DNA from: Sedimentisphaerales bacterium | GTDB lineage: Bacteria; Planctomycetota; Phycisphaerae; Sedimentisphaerales; Anaerobacaceae | Assembly (NCBI GenBank): GCA_016932835.1 | Contig: JAFGCD010000155.1 | Coordinates: forward strand, 32,299-96,298 | Length of the DNA: 64,000 nt | Reading direction: 5' to 3' | Shown here: in pieces, positions 17,130 to 62,526 of the stretch | How the letters are laid out: each line of letters begins with the position of its first letter | How positions within the stretch are numbered: the first letter of the stretch is position 1 | Translations under genes and position numbers: made by a program | Notes under the pieces: model-generated | What the model saw: the letters and a program-made list of their open reading frames with translations, nothing else | What the model was told of the DNA's origin: nothing | The model's database searches: none

Positions 17130-17840
17130 ATGGATGATGCCCTCAAAGAACAACAGGACCTTTACGATGAAACCTGGAGAAAGGGCCTCGAAGCGGGAAA
17201 AGAAGAACGCGGCAACCTGCAGACAAACCTCGAATTCCTCAAAACAATCGATGTGCTTAAACCGGGCGACAAAATCCTGGAGATAGGCTGCGGTATCGGG
17301 ACCATAGTATCGAGACTCAGCGCCGAGGGGTATTCCGTCGCCGGCATCGATATATCGCGACGCGCAATCGCCTACGGCCTCGAGAAGTACGGCGACATCA
17401 ATCTGGAGGTCCAGGCCGCAGAAACCCTGCCCTACGAGAATCAATCATTCGATGTCGTGCTGAGCTTCGACCTGCTCGAACATATCGCCGACGTCGATAG
17501 GCATGTAGCTGAAGTCTCGCGCGTCCTGCGCCCCGAAGGCCGCTATCTCTTTCAAACGCCCAACAAATATTCCAACGCTATCGCCGAAACACTTTCACAC
17601 AAATCCCTGAAATGGCGCCGCGCCCACCCCTCGCTGCATACGCCGCGACAGTTGAAACGCCGCCTGGCGGCGCATGGCTTCGAGGCCCGCTTCATCAAGA
17701 TGAACACGATAAACGAATTCACGCTTGCAAAACTGCGAAAAAGAATCGGGCCTGTCAGCGGTATCTTCAAGCACGTCGATTTCCGCCGGCTGCCGCTCTG
17801 TCTCCAAACAAACCTGTATGTCATTGCTCGCAAAACGTAG
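17130..17840 (+). CDS. Class I SAM-dependent methyltransferase
   Basis: ILEIGCGIGTIVSRLSAEGYSVAGIDIS, LSFDLLEHIADVDRHVAEVSRVLRPEGRYLFQTPN. Confidence 0.88.
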   Translation: MDDALKEQQDLYDETWRKGLEAGKEERGNLQTNLEFLKTIDVLKPGDKILEIGCGIGTIVSRLSAEGYSVAGIDISRRAIAYGLEKYGDINLEVQAAETLPYENQSFDVVLSFDLLEHIADVDRHVAEVSRVLRPEGRYLFQTPNKYSNAIAETLSHKSLKWRRAHPSLHTPRQLKRRLAAHGFEARFIKMNTINEFTLAKLRKRIGPVSGIFKHVDFRRLPLCLQTNLYVIARKT

Positions 17841-54106: not shown

Positions 54107-55153
54107 ATGGAGCATGCTGTTAACAGGATAATCGATGCGAATTTCAATCGTGCTCGCGAAGCCGCACGCGTCATAGAGGAATACTGCCGATTCGCATTGA
54201 ATTGCCGCCCTCTTACCGACCGCACCAAGCAAATCCGTCATCGGCTGTGCGCATTGATCGACCGCTTCGACGACGCACGACTGATAGCCAGCAGGGATAC
54301 CGCTGCCGACGTAGGCGCTGCAAGAACAATCGGCGGACAACTCGAACGCCGCGACCTGCGAGACTGCTTCAAGGCCGGCTGTAAAAGACTAACCGAGGCC
54401 CTGCGAGCCCTCGCAGAGACAACCCAGACATTCGATGCAGAAACCGCCGCACAATTCGAAAAGCTCCGATTCGAGGCCTATGACCTCGAAAAGGACATAA
54501 CTCTCTTCGCCGAACCCGCAGAAAAATTCAAGCGCGTAAAGCTCTATGTAATCATAACCAGCGACCTGCCCGCAGAGATACTCGCCCTCACCGCCAAATG
54601 CGCCGCAGCAGGAGCCGATTGTATTCAACTCCGCGCCAAGCACCTTCCGGACGACAACCTCTATGCCGTCGCGGAACAGTTCGTGAAAATATGCGCTGAC
54701 GAAGGAGCCCTGAGCATGATAAACGACCGCCCCGATATCGCCGTCGCATCCGCCGCCGACGGAATTCATCTCGGCCAGAACGATATGCCCATCGAGCATG
54801 TCCGCAAGTTCCAACGGAAGCCTTTGATAATCGGCAAGAGCACCCACTGCAACGAACAGCTCCGCTCGGCCTGCGCCGACCTGCCGACCTACGTCGCCCT
54901 CGGACCCGTCTTCCCCACCGGCACAAAGCCAGAAACGCCCGCCGTGGGACTGAAATACGTCGCAGAAGCGACGAAAAAACTTGCCGGCACAGGTATCGAA
55001 AGCGTCGCTGTCGGCGGAATAACGCTGCAAAATGTCGCGGACGTACTCAATGCCGGTTCCGATGCCGTGGCTGTCTGCTCGGCTGTGACCGCAGCAGCCG
55101 ACCCCGCCGAAGCCTGCCGCGCGATGAAAAATAGAATTGAAGACCGCCGCTGA
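54107..55153 (+). CDS. thiE: Thiamine-phosphate synthase with N-terminal ThiD2-like domain
   Basis: N-terminal RIIDANFNRAREAARVIEEYCRFALN; C-terminal KLYVIITSD, GADCIQLRAKHL, INDRPDIAVASAADGIHLGQNDMP, AVGGITLQNVADVLNAGSDAVAVCSAV. Confidence 0.92.
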   Translation: MEHAVNRIIDANFNRAREAARVIEEYCRFALNCRPLTDRTKQIRHRLCALIDRFDDARLIASRDTAADVGAARTIGGQLERRDLRDCFKAGCKRLTEALRALAETTQTFDAETAAQFEKLRFEAYDLEKDITLFAEPAEKFKRVKLYVIITSDLPAEILALTAKCAAAGADCIQLRAKHLPDDNLYAVAEQFVKICADEGALSMINDRPDIAVASAADGIHLGQNDMPIEHVRKFQRKPLIIGKSTHCNEQLRSACADLPTYVALGPVFPTGTKPETPAVGLKYVAEATKKLAGTGIESVAVGGITLQNVADVLNAGSDAVAVCSAVTAAADPAEACRAMKNRIEDRR

Positions 55154-61009: not shown

Positions 61010-61424
61010 TTATCCACCAGCGGCAAAATTTGTGCCCCTCTTGCTCCAATCAAGCCTGAATTCCGGACTATTTCCCGCCCGCAACACAAAAAGAAAAGCG
61101 GATTAAACCTGTTGGATTTATCTACAAACGTAAAGCATGTACTAAGAAGGTTTTAGCGTAAAAACCACCCCCGTCCAAACGATTCGAAAAAGGGCAGCGC
61201 CGAACATTGCCTATTTTACCAAACGCCTTCGGCCATACTGTACGACACCTTTCTTGCAGACAACCGGAGTTATCAACAGGTTATCCACAACGGCTCGATG
61301 GCAGCCGAACAAGCCTTCGCGTAGTGTTGCGGCGCCGAATGAGCCGTAAGAAAGCATACAACGCCCGCAGACCGATTATTGCGCGTAAGAATCGGCACGG
61401 CAATGACCGAAAGGCTGTGGAAAA
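61010..61424. other. Candidate chromosomal replication origin (oriC)
   Basis: DnaA-box-like TTATCCACC 61010-61018, TTATCTACA 61118-61126, TTATCAACA 61270-61278, TTATCCACA 61281-61289 (consensus), TGTGGAAAA 61416-61424 (reverse, one mismatch); AT-rich stretch at 61081-61160; GC skew sign change at about 61.3 kb. Confidence 0.65.
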
Positions 61425-61566
61425 GGCAACTTTGTCGGTTGGCTCTTGTCCGCGGGGCAAGGCCGCTGTAGAATCGCAGCCTGAAGCAAACGACAGGCGA
61501 AGGGACGCTGTTTAACGGCGGCAGGATTGGTTTTCGGCTCCGCAAAAGCCGGGAAAGGATTGTGAT

Positions 61567-62526
61567 TTGGGAAAATCGTTAATCGCTATCGGCGAATCGA
61601 TTCATGCTTCGATTCCGAAGACAGGAGCCGTAATGAGGCAATTGGCCGAACTCGGCGCCGAGGCCTATTCGAAACCGAGTGACCAATTGGATTACATCAA
61701 GGACCTGATCGAATCTCAGGTCGCCGACGGCGCCGATTATATCGCAGTTAATCTGGATGCTTTCGGCGAGAGTGACCCTGCCGTTGCAGTGCAGATGATG
61801 GTCGAATACGTTCGGCTGATTCGCAGGTTCGGGCGGGGCGTGCCGGTCTGTATCGACAGCAGCGACAACAACATCCTCACAGCGGGCCTCGAAGAATGGT
61901 ACACCGGCGATCAAGCCGTGCCCCAGCCCCTGCTGAACTCGGTTAAGGATTATACGATGACGGCAATGCTGCCGCTCAAGAAGGAGTTCGACTATGCGGT
62001 GGTCGGTCTTCTGGTAAGCGAGGAGGCCGCCGCCGGGCCGGGCGACTCGCACAGCGTGGACGAATTGTATTGCCTTGCAAAGCGGATATTCGATTGTGCC
62101 GTCGGCGAGTACGGTTTCAAGGCCGGCGAGATATTCTTCGATTCGACCGTTTTTCCCCTGGCGATTGATATGCCGATGCAGCCGGGCGCAGCCGGCTATA
62201 CGTATCGAGCATTCGAGACTATAAAGAAAATCAAAAACGACCCCGCCATGGCCGGCGTGCACTGCTCGCTGGGCGTGAGCAATTGCGCGCGAGACCTGCC
62301 CGCCAGGAAGGTCGGCATCTGCAGGGCGTACGTCGCCAAGGCGATGGAGTACGGCCTGGATGCCGGCATCGTCAATACCGCTCACCACTTCGGCGAAAGC
62401 CCGGCGGCGCCCGAACTGCTCGAATTGGTCGATGCATACGCAAAGATGGACGGTTCAGCCGAAGCGATGATGCGGGCGATGGACCTTATGGGCCAATTCT
62501 GCCGGGCAAGCAGGGGGACTTCTTAG
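61567..62526 (+). CDS. Methyltetrahydrofolate:corrinoid methyltransferase-like (pterin-binding/DHPS-fold)
   Basis: LIAIGESIHASIPKTGAVMRQLAE, ADYIAVNLDAFGESDPAVAVQMM, PVCIDSSDNNILTAGLE, FFDSTVFPLAIDMPMQPGAAGYTYRAFETIKKI; TTG start. Confidence 0.8.
   Translation: MGKSLIAIGESIHASIPKTGAVMRQLAELGAEAYSKPSDQLDYIKDLIESQVADGADYIAVNLDAFGESDPAVAVQMMVEYVRLIRRFGRGVPVCIDSSDNNILTAGLEEWYTGDQAVPQPLLNSVKDYTMTAMLPLKKEFDYAVVGLLVSEEAAAGPGDSHSVDELYCLAKRIFDCAVGEYGFKAGEIFFDSTVFPLAIDMPMQPGAAGYTYRAFETIKKIKNDPAMAGVHCSLGVSNCARDLPARKVGICRAYVAKAMEYGLDAGIVNTAHHFGESPAAPELLELVDAYAKMDGSAEAMMRAMDLMGQFCRASRGTS

Follow-up and report, generated by a model that had tools for sequence, protein, structure and literature searches.

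A DnaA-box cluster in an intergenic gap

We analysed a window of 64,000 nucleotides from the genome of a Sedimentisphaerales bacterium, corresponding to bases 32,299–96,298 of contig C71 in an assembly of 157 contigs and 4.16 Mb. The region of interest (Table 1) precedes a gene for a pterin-binding corrinoid methyltransferase, whose named relatives come from metagenome-assembled Sedimentisphaerales and other Phycisphaerae (Planctomycetota). The methyltransferase is here a free protein of 319 aa; in many relatives it lies within a frame of ~820 aa, behind a methylenetetrahydrofolate-reductase-like part. On the other side, inserted genes, including one for a glycoside hydrolase, now separate the region from thiE in this genome.

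The original prediction was of a chromosomal replication origin, based on five DnaA boxes, an AT-rich tract and a GC-skew sign change in a window that carries no dnaA. All five boxes are indeed present, and no dnaA lies in the window, the two full-length paralogues being located on contigs C139 and C143; most relatives checked likewise carry two dnaA genes at separate loci. The AT-rich tract is also real, a content of 65% AT or more being reached in just 0.13% of the window's 80-bp stretches. Sites with at most one mismatch from TTATCCACA number 18 in the window, compared with 7.8 ± 2.7 in shuffled sequence (0 of 100 shuffles reach 18), and five of them fall within 415 bp where 0.08 would be predicted from the rest of the contig (Poisson P about 3e-8; about 6e-4 when corrected genome-wide). 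An equal density of boxes elsewhere, the circumstance that the original prediction had itself named as counting against it, is therefore not what we find. Across the 4.16-Mb assembly we count 77 copies of the motif TTATCMACA and 26 of its reversed control, and the TTATCMACA copies at 61270 and 61281 are the only pair in the genome less than 400 bp apart. The two boxes at 61118 and 61416, although present, are not conserved in relatives.

Table 1. Features of the locus and of the block upstream of dnaA. Positions are those of the window unless a contig is named.
Feature	Position	Strand	Remarks
thiE (thiamine-phosphate synthase)	54107–55153	+	identified from sequence, without a family search; ancestral left neighbour of the module
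Box 1, single DnaA box TTATCCACC	61010–61018	+	core AATTATCCAC, conserved in relatives
AT-rich tract	61081–61160		65% AT; overlaps the inverted repeat
DnaA box TTATCTACA	61118–61126	+	from the original prediction; without counterpart in the alignment of relatives
25-bp inverted repeat, here TAAAGCATGTACTAAGAAGGTTTTA	61131–61155		consensus TAACTtCTT-N7-AAgnaGTTA; conserved alignment columns in relatives
Head-to-tail DnaA box pair (tandem), TTATCAACA-GG-TTATCCACA	61270–61289 (61270–61278, 61281–61289)	+	unique in the genome
Reverse DnaA box TTTTCCACA	61416–61424	-	from the original prediction; absent among near-consensus boxes around orthologous modules
Pterin-binding corrinoid methyltransferase	61567–62526	+	Pfam PF00809; right neighbour of the module
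Block upstream of dnaA (L008)	C143, about 17,279–17,417		~140 bp; near-invariant in seven genomes of the family

A three-part module conserved across relatives

When up to two mismatches are allowed, the 20-bp tandem recurs in 91 of 161 Sedimentisphaerales genomes, nearly always as one copy per genome (two copies in six genomes); the reversed tandem, searched as a control, gave two matches in total. Alignment of about 60 loci, together with scoring of the parts in 62 modules, shows that conservation is confined to three parts, the DNA around them being unconserved: box 1 (aATTATCCAC), an inverted repeat of 25 bp and the tandem, which we refer to together as the module. The box 1 sequence TTATCCAC is matched at 8/8 positions in 53 of the 62 modules and at 7/8 in another 8, and it lies mostly 260 bp ahead of the tandem in relatives, the same distance as in this genome. 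The module is mostly intergenic, conserved across numerous related genera and usually single copy, and it is the only place at which clusters of at least four near-consensus boxes per 450 bp occur in 2.46 Mb sampled from this genome and its relatives. As judged from these patterns in the sequence, the boxes constitute a genuine DnaA-box locus under selection, clustered beyond chance.

The inverted repeat, which the original prediction overlooked, is previously undescribed. Scores of at least 12/15 are reached in 39 of the 62 modules, where chance would give 0.002 per search stretch. The copy in this genome is degenerate, with 9 of the 15 conserved positions, and would be weak evidence alone, yet it lies exactly at the expected spacing, 121 bp from box 1 and 139 bp from the tandem; because of this degeneracy its function is less sure here than in relatives. 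Where the 139-bp spacing is altered, it is mostly shortened by 11 bp (two lineages) or 21 bp (two lineages), corresponding to one or two helical turns, and some loci are 7–8 bp short in this second spacing, which is no whole turn. An RNA element was considered and rejected: the window holds no Rfam match, and the repeat arms show no covariation above shuffles in the alignment of relatives, which argues for a protein site on DNA rather than an RNA hairpin.

A profile built from all three parts and the distances between them gives scores of 16–92 at modules and of at most 0.0 in 77 control stretches of 20 kb. With this profile, further relatives also yield more degenerate modules; one of these relatives is G058, a complete genome from another family, in which the module (score 45) lies between thiE and the methyltransferase. 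The same scan found no module at the thiE genes of G044 and G048 (complete genomes of family f4) or of G039.

Placement relative to neighbouring genes bears on what the module does. With thiE to the left on the same strand at 35 of 44 loci and the methyltransferase to the right at about 30 of the 44, the ancestral order is thiE, module, methylenetetrahydrofolate reductase/methyltransferase gene. Such an order could mean that the module is the DnaA-regulated promoter region of the latter gene, a reading we regard as improbable. DnaA is a known transcription factor, and in most genomes the module and the methyltransferase domain share a strand, the module being 47–1823 bp upstream. However, the module does not stay with the gene: it is retained at loci that have lost one or both of thiE and the methyltransferase, or where these have moved or been inverted; the methyltransferase gene is inverted in one relative (G013) and elsewhere absent within 10 kb of some modules. 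The distance from module to gene is variable whereas the module's internal spacing is constant, and promoter-like matches in the gap are weak. As the module outlasts neighbours that have been replaced, it is not simply the promoter of one gene.

Strand skew and the replication origin

The sign change in skew on which the original prediction drew is real in this genome. At fourfold sites, genes to the left of the module have negative GC and TA skew whichever way they are oriented, and to its right both skews range from near zero to positive values. Nearly the whole of the left 93 kb is negative; the right end of the window is also the end of the contig, leaving just 2.7 kb beyond the sign change. 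Of the 26 sites of the strand-polar word GGTTTTC to the left of the module, 24 are in minus orientation, and the next occurrence, at window position 61529, is plus. Another word, CGGTTTTC, is confined to one strand (20 copies against 0) across 134 kb (C71 left of window position 61270, and C143), making it a possible chromosome-orienting motif.

These patterns could be explained if the module were a chromosomal origin away from dnaA, at which DnaA would assemble on the boxes and open the AT-rich DNA between box 1 and the tandem. Consistent with this, the module is the densest box cluster seen, exceeds chance as an origin's would, is usually single copy and is kept regardless of its neighbours; GC and TA skew switch from minus to plus here, strong GC switches are found at the modules of G076/G007/G078, G079 and G051, the congener G001 is positive for about 8.4 kb to the right of the methyltransferase, and the dnaA contig C143 has no switch in 41 kb. 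Against it, the minus-to-plus switch is not conserved among relatives, being present here and in only a few others. Most relatives with an intact locus have the same skew sign on both flanks, among them four (L273, L155, L186 and L222) that are strongly skewed, retain the gene order and are positive on both sides, and the mean switch at modules is not above that at control midpoints (P = 0.13). Moreover, in none of the five relatives with a strong switch is the methyltransferase found at its usual place, and their switch may therefore be a rearrangement joint.

Skew signs are in any case labile in this family. Skew flips every few tens to hundreds of kb in this genome and in G003, G013, G079 and G081, even in single-contig relatives, which suggests very frequent inversions. 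Strand domains alternate in the sampled relatives G013, G003 and G081, with almost no alternation in G080, and polar octamers alternate in G079 as well. When neighbouring sites of a polar 9-mer are compared in this genome, 10 of 24 pairs disagree, which shows local switches to be frequent. Given this mosaic in both genome and family, a sign change is weak evidence and no single switch is decisive; by the same token, the finding that the switch is not conserved only makes the origin claim less probable.

The best whole-chromosome skew signal comes from G058. Its polar octamers suggest a plus arm that starts near 0.89 Mb and ends near 3.09 Mb (a modest permutation P = 0.03), and the orthologous module, at about 1.753 Mb, falls within that one arm: 11 octamers are plus and 3 minus in the 860 kb to its left, and 8 are plus and 2 minus to its right. 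An origin at this module is 5.2 lnL units worse than one at the best place. The anatomy of the module also weighs somewhat against an origin, as only three of its boxes are conserved and a strong unwinding element shared among relatives is lacking; the 65% AT tract of this genome corresponds in relatives to an AT excess that is modest and diffuse and peaks (0.18) at the inverted repeat. The literature we searched yielded no worked-out replication origin for Planctomycetota.

The block upstream of dnaA on C143 offers a further candidate. TTATCMACA is absent from both dnaA contigs, and the block carries variant boxes: five box-like sites in about 110 bp, of which two are head-to-tail, two form an inverted pair separated by a GG-type spacer and the fifth is also inverted, along with a run of about nine T, all in a rigid layout. 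Sequence of this kind marks the block as a candidate for either a classical origin or an autoregulated dnaA promoter. Were it the true origin, the module might be an accessory part of a two-part origin system. The block's near-invariance, rigid layout and classical dnaA-adjacent anatomy speak for such an arrangement, but we think it a poor prospect, slightly more so than the promoter reading of the module: skew is positive on both sides of the block, with no switch anywhere in the 41 kb, the block may instead be the dnaA promoter, and nothing places block and module close together on the chromosome. Separately, the complete genome G039 contains about ten similar genes for 262-aa DnaA-like ATPases spread chromosome-wide (e.g. 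L067–L071), which are probably insertion-sequence helper (IstB-like) genes.

The mosaic skew, the same-sign flanks in most relatives, the position of the G058 module inside one arm and the rival block on C143 together count against the chromosomal origin of the original prediction. What survives of that prediction is a real and dense DnaA-box locus; that it is the chromosomal origin is not supported and we consider it unlikely, with a DnaA control locus the likeliest reading of the module.

A putative DnaA control locus

We thus lean, with slightly more conviction than doubt, towards interpreting 61010–61289 as a chromosomal locus that would titrate or regulate DnaA in the manner of datA or DARS2, and that is probably not an origin. 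The parts of the module, its usual single copy, their spacing and phase, and its independence of neighbouring genes are directly established. In favour of a control locus we count the box cluster beyond chance, the unique tandem and its recurrence in relatives, the clear separation of modules from control stretches by the profile, the retention of the module when neighbours are lost, its spacings with their whole-turn deviants, the fixed spacing of boxes and IHF site in datA, and the lack of a skew switch in most relatives and in G058; against it count the position of the module at a minus-to-plus switch here and in a few relatives, the loci that deviate by 7–8 bp, the missing module at the thiE genes of G044, G048 and G039, and the enterobacterial provenance of datA and DARS.

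Under a control-locus interpretation, DnaA would occupy both box 1 and, at a distance of 260 bp, the head-to-tail tandem, the latter with high affinity, and a dimeric DNA-binding protein, which probably bends DNA, would sit on the inverted repeat between them. The fixed spacing and helical phase that the parts maintain make it probable that box 1, repeat and tandem are brought together in a single looped complex. Judging from datA and DARS2, this complex may titrate DnaA or alter its nucleotide state, and would thereby help to time initiation elsewhere.

Dedicated DnaA-binding loci that control initiation have come to light mainly in enterobacteria and a handful of model organisms, the datA and DARS loci having been described from enterobacteria. 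More tentatively than the control function itself, and with our doubts here somewhat the stronger, we suggest that the module represents a new type of DnaA control locus, present in Planctomycetota. A dimer on the 25-bp repeat would phase the DnaA bound at the single box with that bound at the tandem, and each genome would retain one copy of the locus, in a lineage with heavily rearranged chromosomes. If this is true, dedicated DnaA-binding control loci also arise beyond those groups, here in an uncultured planctomycete order, and the module offers a defined 280-bp target together with a predicted binding protein to find.

Comparison with known systems

The module shares DnaA boxes, including a GG-spaced pair, with the dnaA-proximal oriC or dnaA promoter represented by the C143 block, but that block differs in packing five sites into about 110 bp, in its T-tract, in its contiguous conservation and in its position beside dnaA. 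A dnaA-distant oriC is likewise an intergenic DnaA box cluster with some AT-rich DNA; unlike one, the module has few conserved boxes, no strong conserved unwinding element and a location mostly off the skew switch.

The closest known workings are those of datA and DARS2 of E. coli (PMC4585315; PMC12371093). DARS1 and DARS2 share with the module a conserved, non-coding core of three DnaA boxes, to which DARS2 adds sites for bending proteins (PMC4585315); their layout differs from that of the module, which consists of one box and a distant head-to-tail pair. By its layout the module is a candidate for the datA/DARS class, with a hypothetical effect on DnaA ATP hydrolysis or ADP release. In datA, two boxes flanking an IHF site at a fixed spacing are essential (PMC4585315). 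Like the module, datA is non-coding, intergenic and located away from dnaA, its boxes flank a site for a second protein, and spacing matters (PMC4585315). It comprises five boxes and an IHF site, whereas the module has three conserved boxes in about 280 bp and a 25-bp inverted repeat instead. The arrangement characteristic of datA and DARS is nevertheless found in the module, in which boxes flank a site putatively bound by a second protein at fixed distances of 121 and 139 bp.
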